Origin: Spirochaetales bacterium
GTDB taxonomy: Bacteria > Spirochaetota > Spirochaetia > Sphaerochaetales > Sphaerochaetaceae
Assembly: GCA_022788185.1 (NCBI GenBank)
Contig: JALEVV010000007.1
Location: 1 to 44,837 of the forward strand
Reading direction: 5' to 3'
Length of the DNA stretch: 44,837 nucleotides
The position numbers and the translations under genes are program-made. The notes below the pieces were generated by a model. The model worked only from the letters and a program-made list of their open reading frames with translations. It searched no databases and was not told the origin of the DNA. Position 1 is the stretch's first letter. Every line of letters starts with the position of its first letter. Shown here piece after piece: positions 5,730 through 32,985 of the stretch.

Positions 5730-8030
5730 ATGAAAAAGAGTTTTGTTTTTATAACCATCATCGCCCTTCTCTTCTCTCTCATCGGATGCAGCACAGACAA
5801 TGCCCCCCTTACGGGAAGTATCAAAGTGTCGGTAAATGACTCCACTTCAAGAACAATTACTTCTGATGTATCACCTGAAGCAGTAAAGTATATGGTTGAA
5901 GGAACAGCTCCTGATGGCTCTCCTGTTTCATTTGAACTCAGTGAAAGCACCCCTTCATGGACAAATGCGGAAGCCGCACCCGGAAACTGGAGCTTCACAG
6001 CCACAGCATACAATGCTGACGGAAAGGCAATAGGAGATGGATCCTCATCTGCCACTGTCGTGCCCGGCCAGGGGACATCTGTTACGATTGAGGTCAATGA
6101 ATACAGCGGTACGGGAAATCTTACCGTCAACCTTACAGGATTAACCTCTGATCGGGTCAGATATACTGCAACAATCTATAATACGACAGAATTAGTTAAA
6201 TCAGCCACATTCACTGAAGGGAAGGTAACATTCACGCTCCCGAATGGTTTCTATGCACTGGTTCTGTCCTGCGACAATGCATCAATAAACATGCCCGCTG
6301 CTGAAGCCGTCCGTATCATGAAAGACGATAATCTGAGTGTATCCTACTCCATCTGCGATCACGGCGGTGTTGAAGCCGTAATCAGTAACGGGATAAAGCC
6401 ATGTCCTGAGATGAGCATTACACTGAGCAGTGAAAGTATAAATGTCGGTGAGGAAGTAACCGCAGCAGTCTCCATTACTCCGGGAACCTACAATTATGTC
6501 TGGTACGTGAATGATGTCATGCTTGAATCAGTTAACGGGAATTCCGTAGACATCACACTTGAAGACGAAGGTGGCTATAAAATCACCTGTATTGCATACG
6601 ACACGGAAACAGGTGTTGTATGGTCACAGGAGGCAACGGTAAATGTTATTACACCTCGGATGAATACGGTATCATTCTACAGCGGCAATAAACTCATTGA
6701 GACAAGGGAGTGTCCAGCCGGTAGTACCCAGACATTCCCGACAATCGAGCTGGGTGAAGGTTTTACACTTTCAGGCTGGAAAGCTGAAGATAGTGATGAC
6801 CTGATTACGGATGAGAGCTTCTCATTGCCCTACTCGGAGGAAGAATATAAGTATTATGCAGATATTGATACAGAGCTTTTGAGGATCGATAAGACCGGTG
6901 CTGTTTATGGAACGGATTCTCTTAAGAACTCCAGTACAATTACAGAAGTTGTCATTCCATATTCAATTAATGGAAAGGCAGTTACTTCGATAGGATACGA
7001 GGCTTTCTACTATAAAGGTACACAACTAACAAAAATATCAATCCCTGACTCTGTCACTTCCATCAAATACGGTGCATTCTCTGACTGTTCCAGCCTAACT
7101 GAAATCACAATCCCTAACTCTGTCACTTCAATTGGGGACGGTGCTTTCGGCGGCTGTTCCAGCCTTATCGGCATCACCATCCCTGACTCTGTCACTTCCA
7201 TCGGAAGCTCTGCTTTCTCCTACTGTTCCAGTCTCACCAGTATCACCATCCCTGACTCTGTCACTTCCATCGGGGAATCTGCTTTCAAATATTGTTCCAG
7301 CCTCACAAGCATCAATGTTTCAGATAACAACAAGTATTACAAATCAATAGATGGAGTATTGTTTGACAAGAATGCTGAAACAATCATAGCTTATCCTAAT
7401 GGTCATGGCTCCGAGTATGTAATCCCTGACTCTGTCACTTCCATCGGAGTGAGGGCTTTCAAGGACTGTTCCAGCCTCACCAGTATCACCTTCCCTGACT
7501 CCGTCACTTCAATCGGAGAATGGGCTTTCTCAGGCTGTTCCAGCCTCACCGACATCAATGTTTCAGATAACAACAAGTATTACAAGTCAGTCGATGGAAT
7601 ATTGTTTGATAAGAATGTACAGACAATCATTGTATATCCTTGTGGTAGAAGCTCGAATTACTACGCCATCCCTAACTCTGTCACTTCTATCGGATACGGT
7701 GCCTTCAACCGCTGTTCCAGACTTACCGGCATCACCATCCCTGACTCTGTCACTTCCATCGGAAGCGCTGCTTTCGGCGGCTGTTCCAGCCTTATCGGCA
7801 TCACCATCCCTGACTCTGTCACTTCCATCGGAGAAAGTGCCTTCTCCGGCTGTTGGAGACTCACCGGCATCACCATCCCTGACTCTGTCACTTCCATCGA
7901 AGACCGGGCCTTCGCATGGTGTTCCAGCCTTACCAGCATCAATATCAAGCAGAATCAGCAAACAACAAAACTTAAAGGAGCACCATGGGACGCACCTAAC
8001 GCCACGGTCAACTGGGATTACACAGACTAA
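5730..8030 (+). CDS. BspA-type leucine-rich-repeat lipoprotein
   Basis: 766 residues. Signal peptide with lipobox FSLIGC. Residues about 25-310 repeat the three beta domains of the preceding gene. Residues 310-380 form an InlB-B/Listeria-Bacteroides-type repeat (MNTVSFYSGNKLIE ... LSGWKAED). From about 385 to 750 come eleven LRR_5/BspA repeats of 23 residues (ITIPDSVTSIGSSAFSYCSS), interrupted twice by a DGVLFDKN-type hairpin repeat usual in this family. The end, GAPWDAPNATVNWDY, is a typical BspA cap. BspA proteins bind host matrix proteins or other bacteria in oral and gut species, so an adhesin role is plausible. The ribosome site (GGAGGAGG) lies inside the end of the previous gene, indicating coupled translation. 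A terminator follows. Confidence 0.88.
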   Translation: MKKSFVFITIIALLFSLIGCSTDNAPLTGSIKVSVNDSTSRTITSDVSPEAVKYMVEGTAPDGSPVSFELSESTPSWTNAEAAPGNWSFTATAYNADGKAIGDGSSSATVVPGQGTSVTIEVNEYSGTGNLTVNLTGLTSDRVRYTATIYNTTELVKSATFTEGKVTFTLPNGFYALVLSCDNASINMPAAEAVRIMKDDNLSVSYSICDHGGVEAVISNGIKPCPEMSITLSSESINVGEEVTAAVSITPGTYNYVWYVNDVMLESVNGNSVDITLEDEGGYKITCIAYDTETGVVWSQEATVNVITPRMNTVSFYSGNKLIETRECPAGSTQTFPTIELGEGFTLSGWKAEDSDDLITDESFSLPYSEEEYKYYADIDTELLRIDKTGAVYGTDSLKNSSTITEVVIPYSINGKAVTSIGYEAFYYKGTQLTKISIPDSVTSIKYGAFSDCSSLTEITIPNSVTSIGDGAFGGCSSLIGITIPDSVTSIGSSAFSYCSSLTSITIPDSVTSIGESAFKYCSSLTSINVSDNNKYYKSIDGVLFDKNAETIIAYPNGHGSEYVIPDSVTSIGVRAFKDCSSLTSITFPDSVTSIGEWAFSGCSSLTDINVSDNNKYYKSVDGILFDKNVQTIIVYPCGRSSNYYAIPNSVTSIGYGAFNRCSRLTGITIPDSVTSIGSAAFGGCSSLIGITIPDSVTSIGESAFSGCWRLTGITIPDSVTSIEDRAFAWCSSLTSINIKQNQQTTKLKGAPWDAPNATVNWDYTD
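7030..7945 (+). repeat. Tandem 69-bp repeats encoding BspA repeats
   Basis: About ten near-identical 69-bp units, each containing CCCTGACTCTGTCACTTCCA or a close variant, in two or three blocks separated by a different repeated segment (about 7312-7430 and 7554-7665). Identity at DNA level implies recent expansion or gene conversion. Confidence 0.85.
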
Positions 8031-13949: not shown

Positions 13950-14022
13950 TCGGGATGAATGGACTCGAACCATCGATATTCTGCTCCCAAAGCAGACGCC
14001 ATAGCCGCTAGGCGACATCCCG
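13950..14022 (-). tRNA. tRNA-Pro (anticodon UGG)
   Basis: Read on the minus strand, acceptor arms CGGGATG/CATCCCG pair over 7 bp, with the C1-G72 pair typical of bacterial tRNA-Pro and discriminator A. The D-arm contains CCTAGCGGC. The anticodon stem TCTGC/GCAGA encloses loop TTTGGGA, giving anticodon TGG. The T-arm contains GGTTCGAGTCC. CCA is not encoded. It has its own promoter and terminator. Confidence 0.95.
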
Positions 14023-18612: not shown

Positions 18613-21486
18613 TCAGAATTTACCCATTCCTTTCAGAATCTTTTCGGGTGTTATCGGCCAGGTGCGTACCCAGACGCCCGTGGCATCGGCAATTGCCATC
18701 GCTATGGCGGGAGCCGCACCATTGGTTGCGATCTCGCTGATACTCTTCGCACCGTACGGACCGTACTGGTCGTTGACGTCGATGAGCACTGCCTTAAAGT
18801 CATCGGGTGCTTCCCCGATCATCGGGGTTCCGTAGTCGGTGAAGTTCGCATTGTGGCATACGCCGTCCTTATCCAGGACCATGCCTTCATAGAGCGTGTG
18901 TCCGATACTCTTCATCGCGGCACCGTACATCTGGCAGAGCGCGATTTCCGGGTTGATCGGGGTTCCGGCATCCTGAAGTGCGTAGAACTTCATGACCTTC
19001 ACTTCTCCGGTCCTCTTATTAACTGCAACCTGGGCGAAGTGGGCACCGTATGGAATTGCCGAGTTGGCGGTAACGAAGTATCCGGTACCGACCAGCTGGC
19101 CGCGGCCGTCACCCGCAAGGGTATCATGACTGAGCTTTGCGTATGAAAGCGTCTTTCCCGTCTTTGCGGAAACGACTTCACCCGGAGCCCTGAAGGAGAG
19201 ATCCTCCTCGCATTCACCCATCTGGATCGCGGCTTCCTTAATCATCTTTTTAACCAGATCCTCGGTCGCACGGAGCGTTGCCGAAGCGGAGAAGTAGGTG
19301 CCGGATGATGCGTATGCGCCGGTGTCAAAGAGACAGGAGTCGGTGTCACCTGAGACAACAGAAATCTTATCCAGGGAAACCTTCATGTTCTCTGCAACGA
19401 TCTTTGCCGAGATGGTGTCCAGTCCGGTACCGATGTCGGCACCGCCGCTTAAGACGAGGAAGGTACCGTCGGTAAGCAGCTTGACCTGACAGTTGGAGTG
19501 GTCCAGTCCGGGAAGACCGGAGCCCTGCTGGATCATGGCAAAGCCCTTTCCGATTGTCCAGTCAGGATCATCGGAAACTTCCTTCTTACCCCACTCTATC
19601 ATCTCGGCACCCTTTTCCAGAGCTTCCTTCACGCCGCATGAGCCAACAGGCACGATGGCACCCTCACGGCCCTCTCCGAGGCCCTTGAGGATCTCAAGCA
19701 TGTAGCCTTCCTCAACGACGTTCTTCTTTGCAACCTCAAGGGGATCAAGTCCCAGTTTCCAGGACAGCTCGGCAAGAGCCGACATGATTGCAAAGTAGCC
19801 TTTGGGAGCACCGTACCCCTGATATGCACCGGTGGGTGCGATATTGGAGTAGTAGGTGTTCAGGTCATAGAACATGTTCTTCACCGCAAAGAGCGGGAGG
19901 GTCTTACTGGATGCATTCATCGGAACGGTGAGACAGTGGTTGCCGTAAGGCCCTGTGTTGGCCCTGACATCCATGTAGATTGCCGTGATTGTTCCATCCT
20001 TCTTACCACCCATCTTAACCGTGAGTCTCATCGGGTGACGGGTGGAGTTGGCGATGAACTCCTCCTCTCTGGTATTCCTGTAATAGATTGGCTTTCCGGT
20101 GATGTACGTGCAGTATGCACAGAGATCCTCGACCAGGATGTCCTGCTTTGAGCCGTAGCCGCCGCCAACTCTTTCCTTGATGACGTGAACCCTGTTCTCG
20201 CTTATACCGCAGACAGTGGCAACGATTCTTCTCAGATGCCAGGGTACCTGGGTTGAGGCATGAACCGTCAGTCTGCCGTTCTCGATCAGGGAGTAGCACA
20301 CATGGGGTTCAAGCGGGGTGCACTGAACCTGGCTGGTCTGGTAGGTCTCCTCTACGATGGCATCGGCTTCACGGAAGCCTTCCTCCAGAGAGCCTATGCC
20401 GCCGTGGGCACCGGCTGCGATGTTGTGTCTGATGTCTCCATGGAGCGGGAACTGGTAAATTACCTTTCCGTCCCTCTCATCATACTTTTCATTCTGCTTA
20501 TCGAGATCTGCGGGAGCTCCGGCGACGTACTCGATCTTTCCGTTGTGGACGAGGGGGGCGCCCTCGGCCATTGCCTCTTCCACCGTCAGTACGGGAGTCA
20601 GGGGCTCGTAAGTGACCCTGATAAGGGCCTTGGCCTTCTCGCAGGTTTCCTTATCCTTTGCCACGATCGCGGCAACGCGGTCGCCGACATGGCGTACCTT
20701 ACGGTTGATGAGCTTCCTGTCATGGGGGCTGGGTTCGGGGTTACCCTGACCGGCAGACATGTAGTAGACGTCGGGAACGTTTTTCCACGTGATGACTGCC
20801 TCGACGCCTTCAAGCTTTTCGGCTTCACTGGTGTCGATATCTGTTACATAGGCCATGGCATAGGGGCTTCTGAGGACCTCAAGGGCGTATGCTCCGGGCA
20901 TTACCTTATCCTCAACGAAGACCTTCTCACCGCGGACCAGGCTGTCACCATCAATCTTGCCGGTAGGCTTTCCGATCACATCCAGTTCTGGACGGAATGA
21001 AGGGGATACGGGAGTGACGTAGTGACCTTCCCTTCTCTCTTCCTGTACAAGCTTCACTGCAAGGTAGAAGTGCTCATAGCCCGCATCGCGGATGAATACT
21101 GAGGAAAGGGCATCCTTAACGTCTTCCCTTGTGGCATCGCCCTTATGCTCGAGAAGGTGCGTGAGAATGAGGGCCACCGTTGGCGAATTGTAGGCGCTCT
21201 GAACGACACCGGCGGCCACCATGGCCCTCTGGACGTCATTGAGCTTCCTGTCCTTTATCAGGGACTCGGCAGTCCTGATCTCGGCTCCCTCTGCCATGAA
21301 GAGCGGGATGAGGTTTGAGTATCTTACCTCATCATTGAAGATGACTGAATCGCTTCCCGCAAAGCCTTCCCCGTCATCACTGTCACGGACGGTTGAACAG
21401 CCGAGGGCGACCAGAGCCTCCCTGAGGCTGGTCATGGGATCGAGGGCCGATGATACTTTCTTACCGTTTAAGATGAAACTAACCAT
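18613..21486 (-). CDS. xdhD: XdhD-type molybdenum hydroxylase with cysteine-free ferredoxin-like N-terminus
   Basis: 957 residues, matching E. coli XdhD (YgfN) in length and order. Residues 1-145 follow the [2Fe-2S] subunit fold of xanthine dehydrogenases, but the cluster cysteines are gone: DDGEGFAGSD (37-46) stands for the C..GECGAC loop, QSAYNSP (96-102) for QCGFCxPG, FIRDAGY (131-137) for xCRCTGY. Residues about 165-957 are the molybdopterin domain: ERVGGGYGSKQDI, GAYQGYGAPKG, GGADIGTGLDTI (where TEMGQG is usual) and GAKSISEIATNGAA with the expected active-site Glu. Family link: YgfK, SsnA and XdhD are markers of selenium-dependent molybdenum hydroxylases. Overlaps ygfM by 8 nt. Substrate not provable from sequence; a purine is likely. 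Confidence 0.88.
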   Translation of the reverse strand: MVSFILNGKKVSSALDPMTSLREALVALGCSTVRDSDDGEGFAGSDSVIFNDEVRYSNLIPLFMAEGAEIRTAESLIKDRKLNDVQRAMVAAGVVQSAYNSPTVALILTHLLEHKGDATREDVKDALSSVFIRDAGYEHFYLAVKLVQEERREGHYVTPVSPSFRPELDVIGKPTGKIDGDSLVRGEKVFVEDKVMPGAYALEVLRSPYAMAYVTDIDTSEAEKLEGVEAVITWKNVPDVYYMSAGQGNPEPSPHDRKLINRKVRHVGDRVAAIVAKDKETCEKAKALIRVTYEPLTPVLTVEEAMAEGAPLVHNGKIEYVAGAPADLDKQNEKYDERDGKVIYQFPLHGDIRHNIAAGAHGGIGSLEEGFREADAIVEETYQTSQVQCTPLEPHVCYSLIENGRLTVHASTQVPWHLRRIVATVCGISENRVHVIKERVGGGYGSKQDILVEDLCAYCTYITGKPIYYRNTREEEFIANSTRHPMRLTVKMGGKKDGTITAIYMDVRANTGPYGNHCLTVPMNASSKTLPLFAVKNMFYDLNTYYSNIAPTGAYQGYGAPKGYFAIMSALAELSWKLGLDPLEVAKKNVVEEGYMLEILKGLGEGREGAIVPVGSCGVKEALEKGAEMIEWGKKEVSDDPDWTIGKGFAMIQQGSGLPGLDHSNCQVKLLTDGTFLVLSGGADIGTGLDTISAKIVAENMKVSLDKISVVSGDTDSCLFDTGAYASSGTYFSASATLRATEDLVKKMIKEAAIQMGECEEDLSFRAPGEVVSAKTGKTLSYAKLSHDTLAGDGRGQLVGTGYFVTANSAIPYGAHFAQVAVNKRTGEVKVMKFYALQDAGTPINPEIALCQMYGAAMKSIGHTLYEGMVLDKDGVCHNANFTDYGTPMIGEAPDDFKAVLIDVNDQYGPYGAKSISEIATNGAAPAIAMAIADATGVWVRTWPITPEKILKGMGKF

Positions 21487-22174
21487 TAAGCGCCTCCTTC
21501 AGGATCTCATAATTCTCTTTGACAAGATACTTCTTGTATGCGGCACTTCCGGTGATGTCATCCTTTATGTCAGCTGAAAGCGCTTCCTCTGCGGATGAAT
21601 ATATGCTTCCACCGGAAACGGCGGTGAAGTATCCCTTTCCGCTCATGGCGGAGGTTACTGCCGCATGGGAGGAGGAAGTCAGAGACTCCCGTCTCGTCAC
21701 GACCTTCACCAGGGGATCTATGAGAACACCCAGTATGATGCAGTCGCAGGAGCGATTCACATATTTGGAAAGCTCACATGTCTTTTCCCTGTCTGAGAAG
21801 ACCACGAGCTTTGCTCCGTAGGCAAGCAGCACGGGAATAAGGTAGCTGTCAGCTCTCCTGGAAGCGATGTTTCCGCCCAGGGTTGCCGCATTCTTAAGGG
21901 CGCGGGAAGCCATCTTACCGGCAGCCTCCTTAAGGGGAGCCGGCACGATCGGGGATGATTCGAGATCGGAGAAAGTCAGGGCTGAAGAGAGGAAAACTTC
22001 CTCCCCTCTCACTTCTGCCTTCCTTTCGATCAGACCGGTAAGGGGAATGACGGCTGAGGGCCTGTCGGCCTTCAGGCGAAGATCCTCGGTTCCTCCCGCG
22101 ATATACCGGGCGGAAGGAAATTCCTTCTTTTTCAGGAAACACTCGGACAGTGTTGCCGCAGTGACTTTCTCCAT
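21479..22174 (-). CDS. ygfM: FAD-binding subunit partner of XdhD
   Basis: 231 residues from the ATG at 22174, which has GGGAGG 4 nt upstream; an in-frame TTG at 22186 overlaps the ribosome site. CoxM/XdhB-type FAD domain: ARYIAGGTEDLRL (flavin-binding loop) and ALKNAATLGGNIASRRADSY near residue 100. The order xdhB-ygfM-xdhD and the pairing with xdhD match E. coli ygfM-xdhD. Shorter than XdhB, with a minimal C-terminal domain. Likely carries electrons from the Mo centre to an NAD- or ferredoxin-linked acceptor; since XdhD has no Fe-S cysteines, a separate 2Fe-2S protein (XdhC?) or YgfK would be needed in between. Confidence 0.8.
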   Translation of the reverse strand: MEKVTAATLSECFLKKKEFPSARYIAGGTEDLRLKADRPSAVIPLTGLIERKAEVRGEEVFLSSALTFSDLESSPIVPAPLKEAAGKMASRALKNAATLGGNIASRRADSYLIPVLLAYGAKLVVFSDREKTCELSKYVNRSCDCIILGVLIDPLVKVVTRRESLTSSSHAAVTSAMSGKGYFTAVSGGSIYSSAEEALSADIKDDITGSAAYKKYLVKENYEILKEALNG

Positions 22175-22188
22175 AACGCCTCCCAAAG

Positions 22189-23049
22189 CTATTCGATTAT
22201 GCCTGCCGGTGCACCGGACGCCACTTCAGAGAGGAAGTGATCAAGCATTCTTCTTGTCGTGTTTCTTCTCCACTCAGGCATTGCATGAGGGGAGATTACA
22301 GTGTCGTGGGTATCAAGGATATCTGCCTTGAGACCTTCTATCTCGGAAATACTCTTTCCGATTAACTTTTCCTCATTGGCACGGGAGCGTGCCACCTTGG
22401 GACCTGCCGCTCCGCTGGATACCCTGAAGTCCTTTATCACGCCATCCTCTGCCAGGATGAGGGCGGATAGGGAGAGCTTGCTGATGGCATTGGCCTTTCT
22501 GGTTCCTATCTTCCTGTAGTAACCATAGGTCCACTCTGCCTTGGGGATGCGGATTTCCGTGATGATCTCATCATCCCGGAGCTCTGTCTTCTTGCTGCCC
22601 TTTATGAAGTCATCAAGCAGGATGGTCCTCTCACCGCTGATGCTTTTCAGCACGACTGAGGCATCAAGGAGGATGAGGGGCTGGGGCAGATCCCCCTTGG
22701 GGGATGCGTTTCCGATATTTCCTCCGATGGTTGCACTGTTCCTGAGTGAAATTGCACCCATTAGGGAAGCGGCCTTCCTGACGAAGAAAGGAACCATTTC
22801 ACTCTCCGCAATCTCGGCAGAAGTGGTGAGGGCTCCGATGACGACGGTGCCGTCATCCTCTGTCCTGATGCCCTTAAGCTCATTAAGACCGGTAATGATC
22901 ATAATGGGAGAGGAGAACTCGGGAACGACACCCGTGCCCTTCCTGTGCTGTACCATGAGGTCAGATCCGCCTGCAAGCGGGATCGCATGCTCTTCGGCCC
23001 TTATCTTCAGAGCCTCCTCAAGGCTCTGCGGGATGAAACTTTTTACCAT
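22189..23049 (-). CDS. xdhB: Xanthine dehydrogenase FAD-binding subunit
   Basis: 286 residues. FAD_binding_5 and CO-dehydrogenase flavoprotein C-terminal domains. Motifs: AIPLAGGSDLMVQHRKG near residue 25 and ISLRNSATIGGNIGNASPKG near residue 105 (both contact FAD), then GYYRKIGTRKANAISKLS and the SSGAAGPKVARSRANEEKLI stretch of the C-terminal domain. The start overlaps the xdhC end by 7 nt. Second of two FAD subunits in the same operon, pairing with XdhA and XdhC. Confidence 0.9.
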   Translation of the reverse strand: MVKSFIPQSLEEALKIRAEEHAIPLAGGSDLMVQHRKGTGVVPEFSSPIMIITGLNELKGIRTEDDGTVVIGALTTSAEIAESEMVPFFVRKAASLMGAISLRNSATIGGNIGNASPKGDLPQPLILLDASVVLKSISGERTILLDDFIKGSKKTELRDDEIITEIRIPKAEWTYGYYRKIGTRKANAISKLSLSALILAEDGVIKDFRVSSGAAGPKVARSRANEEKLIGKSISEIEGLKADILDTHDTVISPHAMPEWRRNTTRRMLDHFLSEVASGAPAGIIE

Positions 23050-23516
23050 AGACCTTCCCCCTTCCTGCTTGCCAGCAGTATCGACTCGACAATGAGGTCA
23101 TAGCCCGTGCAGCGGCAGATGTTGCCGCTGATGGCAAGACGAACATCGGCTTCGCTGGGATGCGGGTTCTTAAGCAGAATTGCCTCTGCGGCCATTACCA
23201 TTCCCGGAATGCAGAAACCGCACTGTACGGCACCGCCTTCGGCAAAGCTTTCGACCAGGCATTTGCCCTGCTCCGTCTCACGGAGTCCCTCGATCGTGAC
23301 GATCTCACATCCGCCCACGGCTCCCACAGGGATGATACAGGAGGTAACGAGCTTCCCGTCCTTAAGGACAGAACATGCACCGCACTCACCCTCGCCGCAG
23401 CCTTCCTTAGTGCCCGTGATGCCGAAGTCATCGCGGAGCACATCCAACAGTCTCTTAAGCGGGTTACCGTCAAAGGCAACCGGCTTTCCGTTCAATCTGA
23501 ATTCGATCATGCTCAT
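23043..23516 (-). CDS. xdhC: Xanthine dehydrogenase [2Fe-2S] subunit
   Basis: 157 residues, standard length. N-terminal plant-type ferredoxin cluster: C40, C45, C48 (CGEGECGAC) and C60. C-terminal helical cluster domain: C99 and C102 (QCGFCIPG), C134 and C136 (ICRCTGY). All eight cluster ligands are present, in contrast to the degenerate domain of XdhD. ATGA overlap with the xdhA stop. Transfers electrons from the Mo centre of XdhA to FAD on XdhB. Named after E. coli xdhC (Fe-S subunit), not the XdhC-type maturation factor. Confidence 0.92.
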   Translation of the reverse strand: MSMIEFRLNGKPVAFDGNPLKRLLDVLRDDFGITGTKEGCGEGECGACSVLKDGKLVTSCIIPVGAVGGCEIVTIEGLRETEQGKCLVESFAEGGAVQCGFCIPGMVMAAEAILLKNPHPSEADVRLAISGNICRCTGYDLIVESILLASRKGEGLW

Positions 23517-25645
23517 TTTCTCAGGCCCTCAATATCCTCAACGGGGATAGGGATCTTTGTGCAGCTGATTCCGAGCGCACGCTCGACCGCATCCACATAT
23601 GCGGCATCAGCACCGTTAAATACCAGCTCGCCCATGCCCTTGGCACCGAATGGTCCCCAGGGGTACGGGTTATCGACGAAGAAGTACTCCTGCTTCGGGA
23701 AGTCCATGCTGGTGGGAATGACATAGTCTGACATGCTGGACTGTCTGAAGTGGCCATTTCTGTTTTCCATCTTCTCCATTGCGGCATATCCAAGGGACTG
23801 CATGACTCCGCCGTTTACCTGACCGTGAACGATGAGTTCATCGATCGGGTGTCCGATGTCATGGCTTGTCCAGATTCCCTTTACATTGACTTCATTGGTT
23901 ATCTTGTCAACCTCTACCTCGACACAGGCGGCACCCCATCCGTAACCCAGGTATGCATCACCCTTGAACGTGGTCTGATCCCAGGGATGACCTTCGGGAT
24001 GTTCGTACTGAACCTCAACCTCAGCGTGCTCCTCACCCATCTTTTCCTTCATCTGGAGGGCAGCCCTGTAACCGAGGTTACCTACGATCATGGTGGATCT
24101 GGATGCGGCGGTAGGGCCTGAGTCGGGAACCATGTCGGTGTTGGGTGCATCAAAGATGACGTCATCCATGCCTACTTCAAGAGTGGCCGCGACAATCTTT
24201 CTGAGGGCGGTTCTGAAGCCCTGTCCCATCTCGGTCTGTCCGCAGAGAATCGTGAAGGTGTTACCATCCTTAATAAGTCTCAGGCGTCCCTTGATGATGG
24301 CCTGCTCACCGTTACCGGTGAATGCACCGCCGTGGTTGTAGAAGCTTATGCCGATTCCCTTACCGGATCCGATCTCATACTCAGCGCTCTTTCGGAAGTA
24401 ATCGCTGGCAGATGTGATCTGCTCCATCATCTCATTGAGCTTCACGTCCTCAATGATGTGACCTTCGGTAACGGTCTCATCACCCTTTTTGAGGAAGTAC
24501 TTCTTCTTGTAGATTGCAGGATCAATTCCGAACTTCCTCGCAATGTGGTCCATATGCGTCTCGATCGCAAAGAGTGTCTGAGGTGCGCCGAAACCGCGGA
24601 ATGCACAGGATGGGAATGTGTTTGTGGCCATGCCGTAACCCTCAATCCTAGTGCATGGGAAGAGGTAGACGCCATTGGCATGGAACACGCCTCTCTGGAG
24701 GACAACGTAGGATGATGAAAGGTAGGCACCGCAGTTGTAGTAAACCTTGATGTCCGATCCAAGGATGTTTCCATTCTCATCAACACCTGTCCTGAAGACA
24801 ATTTTTGACGGATGTCTCTTGACGGAGTAAAGCATATCCTCTTCCCTGTCAAAGCTGAGCTGGATCGGTTTCTTTATGATGCTTTCGGCAATGAGAAGCG
24901 GTCCTGCCAGAACATCGGGGAAGTGTTCCTTACCGCCGAAGGCACCGCCTGTAACGGTCTGTTTCACCACGATGTCTTCAGGATTGAGGCCGAGAAGTCC
25001 GCAGATGCTCTTTCTGATGTAGAAAGGACACTGGGCTGATGCGTAGATTACATACTTACCGTCCTCAATCGTTGCAATGGCACCATTAGTCTCCAGGTGC
25101 ACATGCTCCTGGAAGCCTGTTTCAATGGTTTCCTCTATGATCTCGGAAGCCTTTGCCAGGGCTTCATTTACATCACCGCCCCTCTCACTTACAAGAGAGC
25201 ACATGACATTGTTTTCCCCGCAGAGCGGTGCGGCTTCATTGTTTATTGCATCATCGATTGAAATGACAGGAGTCTCTTCCTCATATTCAACACTGAATTC
25301 ATCGAATAACTTATTGAGAACTCCCCTGTCCGAACCTACAAGTATACCGATTGTCTCACCGACATACTTCACGTCCCCGTCAGCAAAGCATCTCCAGTCA
25401 TCCGCGATCATCTTGAGGGCATTCTTGTTTCCTTCAGGAATATCCTTTGCACTGATGAAGTAGTATCCTTCAGGCAGTGACGGAACCCTGATATTCCTGA
25501 TCTTACCCCTTGCGATCGTGGAACGGATAAGACGGGAATACAGCATGTTTTCAAATTTCAGGTCAGCAAGATATTTGGCTTCGCCCCTGGCTTTTTCCAG
25601 GGCATCTACTCTCGTGATCCTGTCATCAATGTGAGTAACTGACAT
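23513..25645 (-). CDS. xdhA: Xanthine dehydrogenase molybdopterin subunit
   Basis: 710 residues. N-terminal Ald_Xan_dh_C domain (RVDALEKARGEAKYLADLKF), then the Mo-cofactor domain: TGGAFGGKEHFPDV, SCAFRGFGAPQTLFAIE, CGQTEMGQGFRT and PFGAKGMGELVFNGADA, whose Glu is the expected active-site base. Slightly shorter than typical 750-residue subunits. First gene of xdhA-C-B-ygfM-xdhD, transcribed from the promoter at 25728-25755; start ATG after GGAGGC. The presence of ygfK, ssnA and xdhD suggests a selenium-containing purine hydroxylase acting on xanthine, hypoxanthine or 2,8-dioxopurine; which one is not decidable here. Confidence 0.92.
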   Translation of the reverse strand: MSVTHIDDRITRVDALEKARGEAKYLADLKFENMLYSRLIRSTIARGKIRNIRVPSLPEGYYFISAKDIPEGNKNALKMIADDWRCFADGDVKYVGETIGILVGSDRGVLNKLFDEFSVEYEEETPVISIDDAINNEAAPLCGENNVMCSLVSERGGDVNEALAKASEIIEETIETGFQEHVHLETNGAIATIEDGKYVIYASAQCPFYIRKSICGLLGLNPEDIVVKQTVTGGAFGGKEHFPDVLAGPLLIAESIIKKPIQLSFDREEDMLYSVKRHPSKIVFRTGVDENGNILGSDIKVYYNCGAYLSSSYVVLQRGVFHANGVYLFPCTRIEGYGMATNTFPSCAFRGFGAPQTLFAIETHMDHIARKFGIDPAIYKKKYFLKKGDETVTEGHIIEDVKLNEMMEQITSASDYFRKSAEYEIGSGKGIGISFYNHGGAFTGNGEQAIIKGRLRLIKDGNTFTILCGQTEMGQGFRTALRKIVAATLEVGMDDVIFDAPNTDMVPDSGPTAASRSTMIVGNLGYRAALQMKEKMGEEHAEVEVQYEHPEGHPWDQTTFKGDAYLGYGWGAACVEVEVDKITNEVNVKGIWTSHDIGHPIDELIVHGQVNGGVMQSLGYAAMEKMENRNGHFRQSSMSDYVIPTSMDFPKQEYFFVDNPYPWGPFGAKGMGELVFNGADAAYVDAVERALGISCTKIPIPVEDIEGLRK

Positions 25646-28411: not shown

Positions 28412-29746
28412 TTACGGTTTGATTTTGTCAACAGTGTTCCAGACACGCTGGGCGACACGACGGGCTTCGGCATAGATCTTAGCTTCGTCAATGCCGATCA
28501 TCTTACGGTTCTCCATTACAAGCTTTCCGTCGATGATCACGCTGTCAACGGCATTGCTGCTCATGCCCCAGACGAAGTGTCCGGCGGCATTGGCGCTTAC
28601 GAGCGGAGTCGGAGCGTTGTAGTCGAGCAGTGTAAGGTCGGCAGTGTAGCCTTCCTCCACCCTTCCCCACTTCCTTCCGTCATTGAAGCTCTTTTCAATG
28701 AGGCGGTTACCGCGGTTGAGGGCGGCAACGAACTCTGACGGCCAGAACGGGAGACCTTCATCCTTATGCTTGAAGAACGAAATCTTGAGTTCCTCGAACA
28801 TATTGCCGCCGCAGCCGTCGGTTCCGATGACAAGATTCTTAATCATAGGGAGTGTCCTGCAGTAACCGACGTGGTTGTTCATGTTGCTTCTGCCGTTGTG
28901 GGCGAAGAAACAGTTCCTCTCGTTGATGGTTGCGATTTCCTTCTCTGAAAGATGGAGACCGTGTACCAGGAGAGTGTTGTCCGTCAGCAGACCGAAGCGG
29001 TCAAGACGGTCGATGATGTCCTCATTGTAGTGGTGATGGGACCATACAACATCGTATTTGTCCTCAGCCACATGGAGGTGCATTCCGCGTCCGGTTTCCT
29101 TCATGGCATCTGCCATGAGCTGAAGTCCGGCATCGGGAATCGTGAAGGGAGCATGTCCTCCGATCATGGATTCAACAAGGACGGGACCTTTCTTCTTCTT
29201 TTCATCCACTTCCTTTGCAAAGCGGATGTTTTCCTTGACGCCGTCCTCAACTTCCTTCATGCCTCCGTTACGGTCAGTAACTTCGTAACAGGTGGAACCT
29301 CTGAGTCCGATCTCTTCCATGCCCTTTGCGATTACGGAAAGGGATCCGTCTATGAAGGACGGGGATGCATGGTGGTCGATGGCACAGGTGGTACCAGCCT
29401 TCACTGCATCGATGGAGCAGATAAGTGATGAGTAGTAGAGTGCTTCCTCATCAAGGCCCCTGTCGAGGCGCCACCACCACTCCTTCAGTACCTGGATGAA
29501 GTCGGTCTGGGGACCTGCCGAAATTAGCATGCCCCTGGAAAGGCCTGAGTAGTAGTGATGATGTGAGCATACATTGCCCGGGATAAGGGTCTTGCCGGTG
29601 GCATCGATGACCTTATCGGCTCTCTGCGGGAGCCCTGCTCCCACAGCCTTTATCCTGCCGTCCTCAATGAGGACATCCATGTTCTCCTTCACGTCAAAAG
29701 GAGGCTCAGTCTGCATTATGCGTACGTTTTTAATGAGAATTGACAT
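28412..29746 (-). CDS. ssnA: SsnA-type amidohydrolase
   Basis: 444 residues, close to E. coli SsnA (442). Metal-dependent amidohydrolase fold: N-terminal beta cap (MSILIKNVRIMQTEPP), metal site at GNVCSHHHYYSGLSRGM near residue 60, GMHLHVAEDKYD, LLVHGLHLSE and NLVIGTDGCGGNMFEEL with the metal-binding Asp; C-terminal cap ends the protein. Family relatives deaminate or hydrolyse purine and pyrimidine rings; in the purine-degradation cluster SsnA is expected to act on a purine-derived intermediate, e.g. as an aminohydrolase. Follows ygfK with a 3-nt gap, one transcript ending in the terminator at 28344-28374. Confidence 0.9.
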   Translation of the reverse strand: MSILIKNVRIMQTEPPFDVKENMDVLIEDGRIKAVGAGLPQRADKVIDATGKTLIPGNVCSHHHYYSGLSRGMLISAGPQTDFIQVLKEWWWRLDRGLDEEALYYSSLICSIDAVKAGTTCAIDHHASPSFIDGSLSVIAKGMEEIGLRGSTCYEVTDRNGGMKEVEDGVKENIRFAKEVDEKKKKGPVLVESMIGGHAPFTIPDAGLQLMADAMKETGRGMHLHVAEDKYDVVWSHHHYNEDIIDRLDRFGLLTDNTLLVHGLHLSEKEIATINERNCFFAHNGRSNMNNHVGYCRTLPMIKNLVIGTDGCGGNMFEELKISFFKHKDEGLPFWPSEFVAALNRGNRLIEKSFNDGRKWGRVEEGYTADLTLLDYNAPTPLVSANAAGHFVWGMSSNAVDSVIIDGKLVMENRKMIGIDEAKIYAEARRVAQRVWNTVDKIKP

Positions 29747-29749
29747 CGC

Positions 29750-32700
29750 TTATTCCTCCACTGCATTGAGAAGATATGAGTAGCGTGTGAGCACCGCATC
29801 GATCATGGCGGAAAGCTCATCACTTACATCCACATCCGCATGTCCTTCCTTAACGCTGCCTTTCATGATCTTTCCTTCAACCCTCACCGTGATCTCGTCG
29901 CCTGATACGAGGAAACCGCTGTTGGTGCTGTTCTCAAAGTCATCGGCCCTGGAGAAGAGCGTGAACTTCTTAAGGTACGGTCCTCCGTCATGGGGACAGA
30001 ACGTTGCGCAGTTGCCGCATTCGTTGCAGTATGCATCGATGTGCAGGATCTGGAAGGGATCATCGAAGAGGCCGGTATCCCTTAAGTCGAGTGCCATGTT
30101 GGCCCTGTTGGGACATACCTCAACACACTTGTTGCAAAGGTATGAACACTCGACACAGCGGCATGCTTCCCTCTTCATGAAATCTTCTGAAGAGCACTTA
30201 TCGCATGAGCGTACGACCTTGGACTTCCTCTGTCTGATGGATTGGAAGAACTCATCCTCGGCAGCTTCAAGCTCCTCATCGCTGATCTCTTCCTCCTCTT
30301 CCTCATCGCTGTCATGACAGCCGCAGGTGCAGTCCTCACCATGTTCCTCGCAGCCGCAGTCGCATTCATCGTCATCCTCATCTGATGAGGCGAGCTTCTC
30401 CAGACAGTCATCAATCGCGCGGGAGACCGCATCGCGGGCACTTGCGATACAACGGACAACAGTCGTGGGTCCCGTGAGGGAGTCACCGACGATGTAGATA
30501 CCTTCTCCGTCAGTCGGGAAGCCGTCCACGACCTCAACACCGAGAGCCTGGAAAGTTTCGGTATCAGGCTTGTTACCTGTTGCCGTAATAAGGGCGGAAC
30601 ACGGCAGTGTGATGACTTCACCTGTGTCCTCAGGTCTTCTTCTTCCGCTTCTGTCCTTCTCTCCGAGCTTCATGACGGAAAGCGTGAGCACACCGTCATT
30701 GAGAGCCTTCGGGTTGGTAAGGAATGCGAAGGATACTCCGTCATCCAAGGCAAATTCATACTCTTCCCTGTCGGCAGGCATTTCATCAAAGCTTCTTCTG
30801 TACACGACGGTTACCTTTGCACCGGTGCGGAGGGCCGCACGGGCCGCATCCATTGCGGTGTTACCGCCGCCGACAACGACCACGTCCTTGCCAAGACCGC
30901 TGTCGATACCCTTCTTCTCATCACCGAGGAAGGTTACGGCATCAATGACCTTACCCTCACCTTCGAGACGGATCTTATTCTCCTTCTCTGCACCGATAGC
31001 ATAGAAGATGTAGTCAAAACCGGCCTTTTTGAGGTTTTCAGCCTTCACGTCATCCACAGTCACTCCGTAGTGGATGTCCACACCGTTGCTGAGGATGAAG
31101 TTGACGTCCCGTTCAACCACCTCACGCGGGATCCTGAACTCAGGAATGATGTTGCTTACGACACCGCCTGCGGTCTTTTCACGCTCGAAGATCTCTGTTT
31201 TGAAACCGGCACGGGCCAGGAAGAGAGCTGCGGAAAGTCCTGCGGGACCTGCACCGACGACCGCTGCCTTCACATCCGCGGGGTCCTCAGGCTTAACCCA
31301 GATTTCGGAAAGGAACTCGCTGAGACCTTCCTCTGCGGCAAGCTTCTTCATCTGCCTGATCTTAACCGGGCCTTCGTAATCGAGTCTGGTACAGTGGTTC
31401 TGACACTGATGGTCACAGATCCAGCCTGTGATGTTCGGCAGTGCGTTCTTGTCGAGAATGACTGCAAGGGCTTCTGCAACCTTGCCTTCGCCCATGAGCT
31501 GGATGTATTCAGGAATGTCCTGATGGATCGGACATGCCTCAACACAGGGAGAGACATAACAGTCAGTAAGTGTAAGCGGTGTTACGACCTTAGCCTTATT
31601 CTTACCGCGGAAGTCCTTGCTGATGATATTCTTCCTGTCGCGGGCCCAGGTATTGAGGGTCCTGAGTTTTTCAACATCGATCTTCTTCATATCCCAGGCA
31701 TCGCTTTCCGAGAGGATTGAACAGAGCTGTCCCATTCTGTTGTACCCGCCCGGCTTCAGCATGTCGGTTGCCAGGGTTATCGGCCTGATGCCTGCTTCGA
31801 AGAGTGCCTTGACCGTAAGGGCATTGGCACCGCCTGAGTATGATACGGGAAGCGCACCGCCGAACTCCTCTGAAAGCTTAAGAGCAACGCTGGTGGAGAT
31901 GGGAAGCAGCGTGCGGCCTGACATGTACATCTCGTCACCGGGGAGCACTCCCTGGTCATTGACGGAGCCAAGGGTGTTGGTAAGCTTCACGCCGAAGCCC
32001 CTGCCCTCCTTTGCGGCGAGGTCCACGAGACGGTGGAGCATTGAAACCGCATCCGGGTACTGAAGGTCATGGTCGAAGCTTTCCCTCTTAAGACCGACAT
32101 AGGCGTATCCCAGGTCATTGAGGATTCCCCTCACGCCGTCGAAACCGAGCAGTGTGGGATTGAGCTTTACGAAGGTGTCGATCTTCTTCTCGGTAAGCAT
32201 GTATGTACAGATTGCCTCGATCTCCTTAGGAGGACAGCCGTGCATCGTTGAAATAGTCACGGACGGGGAAATCCTCTTTGAAATCTTAGGAAGCATTGCA
32301 ACGACACTTTCCTCAAGACCGGCCCAGGGAGTGCCGTCCAGATAACCCTTCACGAACACTCTCTTTACATCTTCAATATAGCCGTCGAATCTTCCGTCCA
32401 CATCGGCATCGAGCATAGAGTTGATGAACTTCTGCATGCGTTCGGTCTTAATGCCTTCCAGGTTGTAACCGACACTCATGTTGAAGATGAATGAGGGGCT
32501 TTCGAAGGAACCCTTGTTCTGAAGTGTCTCGATGATATGAAGGATGATCCAGGCCTTGAGATACTCATCATAGGCCTTGGGCAGGGTATATTCTGTGGAC
32601 CACTCGACGTTGTAGCCCTCATCGCGTGCATCGATACACGGCTTTGCTATCTCAAGCGTGTCCATGATCTGGACGGTCTTGAGCTCTATGAATCTTGATC

Positions 32701-32926
32701 CGGTAAGATATGCAGCTATTATGTTCTGTGCAAGCTGGGTATGGGGGCCTGCTGCAGGACCGAGCGGTGTCACGCACTTCTGCGAGAACACATTGACACT
32801 TTTATCCCCGGAAGGTGTGTAAAACTCACTCTCATGAATAGAGAATATCGAACCTTCATTCCTGTACTCCCCGACGATCCTGTCAAACAGGTTCACAAAG
32901 GGAACCGGTCTCATTTTATCAGCCAT
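29750..32926 (-). CDS. ygfK: YgfK-type iron-sulfur oxidoreductase ('putative selenate reductase')
   Basis: 1058 residues from the ATG at 32926 (GCGGAGGAA upstream; MADKMRPVPF matches the E. coli MGDIMRPIPF start). Order: dihydropyrimidine/dihydroorotate-dehydrogenase-like region (1-450; GPAAGPHTQLAQNI, STMHGCPPKEIEAI); Fe-S segment (CVEACPIHQDIPEYI, ICDHQCQNHCTRLDY); FAD and NAD(P) Rossmann domains (VVGAGPAGLSAALFLARAG, VVVGGGNTAMDAARAAL); a Cys/His-rich acidic insertion (about 846-892); and a ferredoxin-like end (CVECSYLCNKCVEVCP, CNECGNCATFCPHDGG). The name is historical; the family is tied to selenium-dependent Mo hydroxylases and purine breakdown, probably as an electron-transfer or ring-reducing enzyme. 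Promoter at 32958-32985. Confidence 0.92.
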   Translation of the reverse strand: MADKMRPVPFVNLFDRIVGEYRNEGSIFSIHESEFYTPSGDKSVNVFSQKCVTPLGPAAGPHTQLAQNIIAAYLTGSRFIELKTVQIMDTLEIAKPCIDARDEGYNVEWSTEYTLPKAYDEYLKAWIILHIIETLQNKGSFESPSFIFNMSVGYNLEGIKTERMQKFINSMLDADVDGRFDGYIEDVKRVFVKGYLDGTPWAGLEESVVAMLPKISKRISPSVTISTMHGCPPKEIEAICTYMLTEKKIDTFVKLNPTLLGFDGVRGILNDLGYAYVGLKRESFDHDLQYPDAVSMLHRLVDLAAKEGRGFGVKLTNTLGSVNDQGVLPGDEMYMSGRTLLPISTSVALKLSEEFGGALPVSYSGGANALTVKALFEAGIRPITLATDMLKPGGYNRMGQLCSILSESDAWDMKKIDVEKLRTLNTWARDRKNIISKDFRGKNKAKVVTPLTLTDCYVSPCVEACPIHQDIPEYIQLMGEGKVAEALAVILDKNALPNITGWICDHQCQNHCTRLDYEGPVKIRQMKKLAAEEGLSEFLSEIWVKPEDPADVKAAVVGAGPAGLSAALFLARAGFKTEIFEREKTAGGVVSNIIPEFRIPREVVERDVNFILSNGVDIHYGVTVDDVKAENLKKAGFDYIFYAIGAEKENKIRLEGEGKVIDAVTFLGDEKKGIDSGLGKDVVVVGGGNTAMDAARAALRTGAKVTVVYRRSFDEMPADREEYEFALDDGVSFAFLTNPKALNDGVLTLSVMKLGEKDRSGRRRPEDTGEVITLPCSALITATGNKPDTETFQALGVEVVDGFPTDGEGIYIVGDSLTGPTTVVRCIASARDAVSRAIDDCLEKLASSDEDDDECDCGCEEHGEDCTCGCHDSDEEEEEEISDEELEAAEDEFFQSIRQRKSKVVRSCDKCSSEDFMKREACRCVECSYLCNKCVEVCPNRANMALDLRDTGLFDDPFQILHIDAYCNECGNCATFCPHDGGPYLKKFTLFSRADDFENSTNSGFLVSGDEITVRVEGKIMKGSVKEGHADVDVSDELSAMIDAVLTRYSYLLNAVEE
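30250..30390 (-). other. Acidic Cys/His-rich insertion coding segment within ygfK
   Basis: Encodes about 47 residues with two CxCGC motifs, each followed by His (CDCGCEEH and CTCGCH), then a run of Asp/Glu (DSDEEEEEEISDEELEAAED). As I recall the E. coli YgfK sequence, it has no such segment at this place, between the NAD-binding domain and the last Fe-S domain. It could bind Zn, Ni or Cu, or chaperone a metal or selenium species; inference only. Confidence 0.7.
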
Positions 32927-32957
32927 AATGATTCCTCCGCGTAGTATGTCTACCTTC

Positions 32958-32985
32958 ATTGTACCTTACTTTACCCATAAGTCAA
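32958..32985 (-). promoter_or_regulatory. Promoter of ygfK-ssnA
   Basis: Minus strand TTGACT (32980-32985), 16-nt spacer, TACAAT (32958-32963); short leader to the ATG at 32926. Confidence 0.7.

Follow-up and report, generated by a model that had tools for sequence, protein, structure and literature searches.

The xdhD locus and its Mo domain

We analyzed a window of 44,837 nucleotides from a Spirochaetales bacterium, covering positions 1 to 44,837 of the forward strand of contig JALEVV010000007.1; all genes and features named below lie on the minus strand. The open reading frame at 18613 to 21486 starts with ATG and encodes 957 amino acids, and the limits assigned to it earlier hold. A profile search matches its product over the full length to TIGR03313 (1183.6 bits; curated cutoff, 1101.9), identifying it as XdhD, a Mo-binding subunit fused to a cysteine-less ferredoxin-like domain. 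The adjacent ygfM (21479 to 22186), which overlaps xdhD by 8 bases, encodes a short FAD-binding partner of 235 amino acids with no CO_deh_flav_C match in profile searches. Profile searches and alignment further identify the genes of a neighboring intact Mo enzyme: xdhB (FAD subunit; 22189 to 23049), xdhC ([2Fe-2S] subunit with all eight cysteines present; 23043 to 23516), and xdhA (Mo subunit of 710 amino acids with a TEMGQG motif; 23513 to 25645). Farther along lie ssnA (28412 to 29746; TIGR03314, 546.6 bits; cutoff, 455.5), an aminohydrolase of the reductive uric acid pathway, and ygfK (29750 to 32959; TIGR03315, 1284.8 bits; cutoff, 835.3), an Fe-S flavoprotein reported to be a yanthine reductase (PMC12507026). 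With ssnA and ygfK alongside xdhD, the window holds a reductive uric acid pathway locus, for which we looked for ssnA together with ygfK or uacX. No riboswitch was found in the window; among Rfam families, only one tRNA scored over threshold.

Residues 175 to 957 of XdhD (18616 to 20964) carry the Mo cofactor domains (Pfam hammerhead, MoCoBD_1, and MoCoBD_2), and scores of 240.3, 218.7, and 89.4 bits for MoCoBD_1, MoCoBD_2, and Ald_Xan_dh_C place the protein in the xanthine oxidase family. Glu605 (19672 to 19674) is the equivalent of E. coli Glu606, for which a computed model proposes a substrate-orienting role (PMC12507026). In an alignment that omits seven short rows, this residue is Glu in 72 of 72 XdhD rows, with and without cysteines, and the ADIGTG motif (19423 to 19440), which replaces TEMGQG, reads [AST]D[IL]GTG in all 72. 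The KSISE motif (18733 to 18747) reads KS[IV][SG]E in all 68 of the 72 rows that extend that far and aligns with GxGE in the XdhA rows, the position of the family's catalytic glutamate; from what is known of xanthine dehydrogenases, we take its Glu to be catalytic. These active-site signatures are common to XdhDs with and without cysteines.

An emptied ferredoxin-like domain

Profiles, solved structures, and alignment indicate that residues 1 to 150 (21037 to 21486) have the skeleton of a ferredoxin-like [2Fe-2S] subunit without the cluster ligands. Residues 2 to 147 match NCBIfam XdhC (61.1 bits) and residues 72 to 145 match Pfam Fer2_2 (45.1 bits), with no Fer2 match listed at E ≤ 1 in the Pfam search. 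Two solved [2Fe-2S] subunits also match the domain, 4zoh_C over residues 3 to 152 (E, 2.2e-12) and 3hrd_D (E, 9.9e-9). Alignment with the window's own XdhC (27% identity over 139 residues) gives a replacement at every ligand column. The first four, Cys40 to Asp37, Cys45 to Ala43, Cys48 to Asp46, and Cys60 to Asn58 (21313 to 21378), presumably belonged to the N-terminal, flavin-side cluster, and the last four, Cys99 to Ser97, Cys102 to Asn100, Cys134 to Ile132, and Cys136 to Asp134 (21085 to 21198), presumably to the second, Mo-side cluster; both sets were placed in an alignment of 60 cysteine-less rows. The earlier note on this DNA, which had described replaced ligands on a retained [2Fe-2S] skeleton, was correct, and the motifs that it listed (QSAYN, IRDAGY, GEGFAGSD, and GGADIGTG) are present as given. 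With none of the eight ligand cysteines, the window XdhD departs from the two-cluster pattern of the xanthine oxidase family. The E. coli K-12 protein likewise has none of the eight, as that note had stated. By sequence, both members lack ligands for two clusters, contrary to the NCBIfam label "Mo/Fe-S-binding."

The loss has no intermediate state. By locus, all three cysteine motifs are kept in 13 and none in 50, with no mixed cases; this count omits six loci with missing N termini (L065, L136, L137, L140, L141, and L142, the last two being split forms). By row, none of the eight ligands is present in 48 of 60 cysteine-less sequences and a single Cys, at column 43 only, in the other 12, while all eight are present in 12/12 cysteine-bearing rows. 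Among 48 spirochaete XdhDs over the cutoff, 37 have lost the sites (33 lack Cys entirely and 4 have a single one, at column 43), and the other 11, from other families of the same class, keep eight cysteines. The earlier reading, under which close spirochaete homologs should not retain the cysteines, stands within the window's own family, where every XdhD over the cutoff has lost the sites, but not for these 11.

Several observations indicate that the cysteine-bearing state came first. All eight cysteines are found in the Cetobacterium XdhD, in 12 spirochaete XdhDs of the same class, and in the XdhC subunits that accompany four split XdhDs of the outgroup. In a tree of the N-terminal domain from which the ligand columns were excluded, cysteine-bearing and cysteine-less XdhD domains group together (support, 100), apart from XdhC; on this grouping, we reject the idea that the cysteine-bearing form arose by a domain swap. 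The cysteine-less domains form one group (97), and the cysteine-bearing rows are weakly joined (75). The Mo domain tree places Cetobacterium XdhD at the base and rejects a single clade of all cysteine-bearing XdhDs (AU P = 0.0066); its support for one cysteine-less clade is only 62, with E. coli and Cetobacterium on long branches. Near-identical rows were removed before tree building, and E. coli and Fusobacterium are each represented by only a single XdhD. The Firmicute survey found XdhD over the cutoff in 1 of 398 genomes, and the Firmicute rows came mostly from another source; of the 20 Firmicute SsnA loci inspected, 19 belong to the 86 that score over the cutoff. The loss is all-or-none and derived, and the trees fit one ancient event; the "ancestral trait" of the earlier note is not supported, the loss being ancient but derived.

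Constraint on the domain and parallel change in YgfM

Six of the eight former ligand columns hold near-fixed polar residues in the cysteine-less rows: Asp37 (60/60), Asp46 (60/60), and Asn58 (55/60) and, at the second site, Ser97 (59/60), Asn100 (60/60), and Asp134 (58/60). The same columns are Cys in 12/12 cysteine-bearing rows. The pattern exceeds chance, as 60 rows carry these replacements. Of 14 cysteine-less pairs, 10 allowed an estimate of the dN/dS of the domain, which is 0.035 to 0.157 and exceeds that of the Mo domain in 8 of these 10. At matched divergence, the ratio of N-terminal to Mo domain divergence is 1.81 and 1.59 in cysteine-less XdhDs versus 1.68 and 1.55 in cysteine-bearing ones, and the YgfM ratios are 3.0 and 2.44 versus 2.77 and 2.26; no clearly faster emptied domain or YgfM was found in the cysteine-less group in this comparison, which includes 8 cysteine-bearing rows only. 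The cysteine loss is, by these measures, not decay, and the domain keeps about the same pace relative to the Mo domain as in its cluster-bearing sisters. Purifying selection, unchanged relative pace, and conserved replacements support the earlier suggestion that the domain is retained for a nonredox role. The missing ligands could in themselves point to a decaying or inactive paralog, but purifying selection and the catalytic signatures common to both XdhD types argue against this, as does the presence of at least 80% of the xdhD gene in 5,130 of 5,426 E. coli genomes. Further, an E. coli strain deleted for xdhD gave no yanthine (PMC12507026). Since activity is reported for the E. coli enzyme, this reading is already contradicted, and we consider it highly improbable.

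A ygfM-type gene adjoins xdhD in 63/63 loci. CO_deh_flav_C is found in 8/9 partners of cysteine-bearing XdhDs and in 29/29 XdhB controls (of 39 listed) but in only 2/56 partners of cysteine-less XdhDs; the other 54 have no match at E ≤ 1e-6, with weak remnants below the cutoff in some. These scans used 56 and 8 partners kept after removal of near-identical rows, with Cetobacterium added. A mere length effect is not fully excluded, although longer YgfMs also stay under the 25.5-bit cutoff (E. coli, 259 amino acids, 22.8 bits; L112, 263 amino acids, 24.2 bits; L115, 278 amino acids, 17.1 bits). In addition, one Asp, probably on the flavin side, is present in 10/10 other partners and in 0/66 cysteine-less-type YgfMs. 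FAD_binding_5 is found in 56/56 partners of cysteine-less XdhDs; the window YgfM matches it with 65.3 bits and provides, by profile, the FAD subunit typical of the xanthine oxidase family. At the sequence level, YgfM has changed in parallel with the XdhD cysteine loss while retaining its FAD-binding domain, and the loss of CO_deh_flav_C and the Asp may weaken its use of NADH.

This joint change of the electron-entry chain (Fe-S ligands, CO_deh_flav_C, and the probable flavin-side Asp) beside common Mo-site signatures would also suit a purine transhydroxylase independent of external electrons, in which Mo takes two electrons from one purine (e.g., xanthine to urate) and dehydroxylates urate to yanthine. 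The omission controls in the available text of PMC12507026 name enzyme or substrate and not NADH, which leaves room for such a reaction. On the other side, FAD-binding motifs are kept in 67/67 partners, and Li et al. (PMC12507026) report yanthine from urate plus NADH with no xanthine added, yanthine accumulation in an xdhA deletion in LB, and no consumption of xanthine by an xdhA deletion in glucose medium, though glucose represses the locus. We regard a transhydroxylase as improbable. Slightly less probable still is its fully redox-neutral form, in which XdhD-YgfM would have discarded the electron-input chain and would convert xanthine to yanthine, urate serving as the relay; a ferredoxin fold free of clusters and an eroded flavoprotein would then persist as structural subunits.

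Electron entry and comparison with known systems

The reading that we favor, and think probable, is that of a cluster-free urate reductase with the ferredoxin-like domain as a scaffold. The window XdhD would be the Mo subunit of an enzyme that reduces urate to yanthine and is encoded in a reductive uric acid locus. One ancient event would have removed the ligands of both [2Fe-2S] clusters in the XdhD lineage, polar and aromatic residues would have refilled the emptied sites, and the cluster-free domain would have stayed as a bridge between the Mo domain and YgfM. Since the E. coli XdhD is reported as a urate-to-yanthine reductase (PMC12507026), electrons should enter the Mo center, and the earlier question of how they leave it is reversed. 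With the ligands of both relays lost and the domain under strong selection, their path becomes a testable question. Purified E. coli XdhD with a partner of ~30 kDa makes yanthine with NADH, and XdhD-YgfM was modeled after a xanthine dehydrogenase, the reductant being NADH (PMC12507026). We tentatively suggest, at somewhat less than even chances, that electrons still enter through the YgfM flavin and reach the Mo cofactor with no cluster in between, either slowly or via closer docking. A point against this is the length of the flavin-to-Mo gap in a cluster-free enzyme: at an assumed edge distance of approximately 25 Å, tunneling is estimated at 0.001 to 0.01 per s.

Two other routes appear unlikely to about the same degree. 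In the first, an intact stand-alone XdhC, usually that of the neighboring xdhA-xdhC-xdhB enzyme, would lend XdhD its [2Fe-2S] relay in trans by docking or displacement. Where the fetched stretch reaches at least 6.5 kb upstream, it contains such an xdhC at 33/42 cysteine-less loci (30 of the window type and 3 others; 17 kb away in E. coli) versus 0/12 cysteine-bearing ones, and a stand-alone Fer2_2 protein (frame of up to 300 amino acids, over the Pfam cutoff) occurs in 41/41 cysteine-less genomes searched whole. However, 11/12 cysteine-bearing genomes also have one (open frame of up to 350 amino acids), and 10/12 have another Fe-S protein (frame of 468 to 555 amino acids) on the XdhD contig, ~15 kb off and outside the fetched stretch. 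xdhC is absent from the stretch at 9/42 cysteine-less loci, two of which (G318 and G349) have xdhACB elsewhere, and xdhACB also accompanies a cysteine-bearing gamma subunit at a Firmicute split-XdhD locus (L197; L189 partly, by pattern). The docking site is already filled by the fused domain, and the only partner named in the E. coli pull-down text is the ~30-kDa protein (PMC12507026). The association between xdhC and cysteine loss reflects a single cysteine transition and not independent cases. In the second route, another redox protein (YgfK, a ferredoxin, or a flavodoxin) would dock near the emptied domain and reduce the Mo center directly. The window locus has ygfK, as do 27/42 cysteine-less loci with sufficient flank, but the gene does not track cysteine loss, because it is also present in 10/12 cysteine-bearing loci, and the in vitro reductant given for XdhD-YgfM is NADH only (PMC12507026).

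In E. coli, XdhD is reported to catalyze the first step by which urate is broken down anaerobically, and this pathway has been discussed in relation to gout. The terms "2Fe-2S" and "cysteine" do not occur in the main text of PMC12507026, and its "Fe-S" passages concern YgfK; a printed statement that XdhD lacks Fe-S ligands was not found in the open-access literature, covered mostly below the full-text level. What sequence comparison appears to add is the all-or-none derived loss, the absence of decay, the shared active-site signatures, and the parallel YgfM change. The window XdhD is 50% identical to its E. coli counterpart over the full length and shares with E. coli XdhD-YgfM the cysteine-less domain, the ygfM neighbor, the Glu606 equivalent, and ADIGTG. 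It differs in that xdhA-xdhC-xdhB lies directly upstream of ygfM-xdhD, in the length of YgfM (235 versus 259 amino acids), and in that its urate reduction is predicted, that of the E. coli enzyme being reported.

Relative to the xanthine dehydrogenase/oxidase family, MoCoBD_1, MoCoBD_2, the hammerhead domain, the ferredoxin-like skeleton, and the FAD partner are held in common, whereas the window XdhD has ligands for neither of the two [2Fe-2S] clusters general to that family (PMC3958847). The cysteine-bearing XdhDs of other spirochaete families and Cetobacterium have the same fused layout, ygfM neighbor, Glu606 equivalent, and ssnA locus but differ in their eight cysteines, in the CO_deh_flav_C domain of YgfM (8/9), and in the absence of xdhACB from the fetched stretch (0/12). 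Given the shared signatures, these sisters form a matched pair with the cysteine-less form, which makes relay-free Mo reduction directly testable in E. coli K-12. In D. gigas-type aldehyde oxidoreductase, the Fe-S and Mo domains are likewise fused in one chain, with the clusters kept. This enzyme has no FAD domain (PMC3958847), and its clusters without an FAD domain are the reverse of the arrangement in the window XdhD.

Genomic context of XdhD

The xdhD open reading frame, on the minus strand at 18613 to 21486, matches TIGR03313 over its full length at 1183.6 bits (cut-off, 1101.9) and belongs to an operon-like run, xdhA-xdhC-xdhB-ygfM-xdhD, with ygfK (TIGR03315, 1284.8 bits) and ssnA (TIGR03314, 546.6 bits) upstream. 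The source assembly is 2.27 Mb in size, and at 91% identity Bullifex porci is the closest named relative among the matches listed. For E. coli, the available portions of PMC12507026 and its commentary PMC12990295 report conversion of urate to 2,8-dioxopurine (yanthine) by XdhD with a partner of ~30 kDa, putatively YgfM, followed by reduction of yanthine by YgfK and ring opening by SsnA. We infer that the spirochaete XdhD likewise reduces urate.

A GuaD/SsnA-like amidohydrolase, matching GuaD or SsnA at about 25 to 28%, is encoded directly upstream of ygfM-xdhD at loci without, and some with, xdhACB (L115, L116, L118, and L101 to L111), and may be an additional purine deaminase of the pathway. 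XdhA (23513 to 25645; 710 aa) falls in a clade separate from E. coli XdhA, and this type recurs next to XdhD in spirochaetes and some Firmicutes. The window's genome encodes a second fused Fe-S/Mo hydroxylase (G000:C62:7486-9981; open frame of 856 aa), whose XdhC-like N-terminal domain is 51% identical to the window XdhC. The window also carries a 766-aa ORF with BspA-type leucine-rich repeats (5730 to 8030, plus strand) and a tRNA gene adjoining arg genes (13950 to 14022, minus strand), its sole Rfam match over threshold.

Loss of the cluster ligands

The earlier note had claimed that XdhD has lost its cluster cysteines; indeed, alignment with the window's own XdhC finds all eight [2Fe-2S] ligand columns replaced. 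Across cysteine-less rows, the columns read in order D (60/60); A, T, C, V, or S; D (60/60); N (55/60); S (59/60); N (60/60); I or V (56/60); and D (58/60), and the 12 cysteine-bearing rows have C at all eight. Forty-eight XdhD rows have no ligand cysteine, 12 have one, and 12 have eight, with no intermediates; the single cysteine is restricted to the second column, residue 43. The preceding residue, F in 59/60 cysteine-less rows and mostly S (9/12) in cysteine-bearing ones, looks as if it filled a cavity.

An XdhD that scores above the cut-off is encoded in 48 of the 392 spirochaete genomes surveyed; all 48 proteins were read, and 33 have no ligand cysteine, four have one, and 11 have eight. 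The cysteine-bearing set was enlarged by a partial XdhD from a 12th spirochaete (G344) and a Cetobacterium plasmid copy. By distinct locus, all three cysteine motifs are matched in 13, none in 50, and some in 0. Next to the four split outgroup XdhDs, XdhC carries all eight cysteines.

In a tree of the N-domain (residues 1 to 150) with ligand columns removed, both XdhD types cluster (support, 100) separately from XdhC; cysteine-less XdhDs, including that of E. coli, form one group (97), and cysteine-bearing ones are weakly joined (75). The Mo-domain tree places Cetobacterium XdhD basally, rejects a single clade of all cysteine-bearing XdhDs (AU p, 0.0066), and groups the cysteine-less rows with weak support (62) amid long branches that include Cetobacterium and E. 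coli; another tree does not settle the order in which E. coli and the two types of row branch. Absence of the cysteines is an ancient but derived state, rather than the ancestral trait previously proposed: 11 of 48 spirochaete XdhDs, Cetobacterium XdhD, and the outgroup XdhC subunits keep the cysteines. The most parsimonious scenario starts from a cysteine-bearing gamma subunit encoded separately, which was fused to the Mo subunit before a single loss took place.

The flavoprotein partner and the electron route

The flavoprotein changed alongside XdhD. A ygfM-type gene adjoins xdhD in 63/63 loci, and FAD_binding_5 is found in all partners of cysteine-bearing (9/9) and cysteine-less (56/56) XdhDs. 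In contrast, CO_deh_flav_C (E ≤ 1e-6) is found in 8/9 partners of cysteine-bearing but 2/56 of cysteine-less XdhDs, and some partners of the latter keep a remnant below the cut-off; the domain is present in 29/29 XdhB proteins taken as controls from these loci. One YgfM column is Asp in 10/10 partners of cysteine-bearing XdhDs and 0/66 others, but is of limited weight because its presumed location at the flavin rests on analogy with xanthine dehydrogenase, and because the window's XdhB likewise lacks the Asp. The overall rate of YgfM shows no clear rise (the cysteine-bearing comparison comprises eight rows).

We tentatively choose the YgfM flavin as the point of electron entry, a route that falls short of an even chance. 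For an assumed, approximate flavin-Mo edge distance of 25 Å, the calculated rate is 0.001 to 0.01 electrons per second, or about 2 to 18 turnovers per hour. Such turnover could suffice for detectable yanthine under the assay conditions given in the available text of PMC12507026 (10 µM enzyme, 1 mM urate), and that assay alone is therefore no proof of a competent relay; the omission controls named there are of enzyme or substrate, not NADH.

Stand-alone XdhC might instead supply the [2Fe-2S] relay in trans, as xdhC lies near XdhD in 33/42 cysteine-less loci versus 0/12 cysteine-bearing ones. This is unlikely, given that the other nine cysteine-less loci have no xdhC nearby, that stand-alone Fer2_2 proteins occur in 11/12 cysteine-bearing and 41/41 cysteine-less genomes, that in 10/12 cysteine-bearing genomes the contig carrying XdhD encodes another Fe-S protein ~15 kb away, and that the same xdhACB stands beside split XdhD at Firmicute loci (L197, whose gamma subunit has cysteines, and in part L189). 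Also unlikely is that cysteine-less XdhD is a purine transhydroxylase: this would account for how the entire electron-input chain was able to erode, but FAD motifs are retained in 67/67 partners, and the E. coli data in the accessible part of PMC12507026 point away from it.

Constraint on the emptied domain and comparison with the known family

The emptied domain is not in decay. Its dN/dS is 0.035 to 0.157 (10 estimable of 14 cysteine-less pairs), exceeding that of the Mo domain in 8/10; the N-domain values for two cysteine-bearing pairs are 0.179 and 0.094. N-domain/Mo-domain divergence in two bins is 1.81 and 1.59 for cysteine-less versus 1.68 and 1.55 for cysteine-bearing rows (eight of the latter). 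D37, D46, S97, and N100 are invariant in a 25-sequence alignment, as are R133, D134, G136, and Y137, and N58 is almost so. At least 80% of the xdhD gene is present in 5130/5426 E. coli genomes.

Both types probably catalyze the same reaction with a different relay, because the equivalent of E. coli Glu606, proposed to orient substrate, is E and the motif [AST]D[IL]GTG is present in 72/72 rows. Fifty-nine columns distinguish the types, 15/150 in the N-domain and 44/803 elsewhere; the Mo domain has therefore changed too.

NCBIfam and RefSeq currently annotate both the window XdhD and E. coli XdhD (L009:21317-24187) as "Mo/Fe-S-binding subunit." The family includes proteins with and without the cysteines; for those without, this name is misleading and needs correction. 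The xdhD gene, pathway, and family are already known. Since the accessible portions of the open-access literature searched yielded no statement that E. coli XdhD has no cluster ligands, since the xanthine oxidase family is held in general to have two [2Fe-2S] clusters (PMC3958847, as available), and since XdhD is annotated as Fe-S binding, the cysteine-less XdhD clade is a new variant within a known family.
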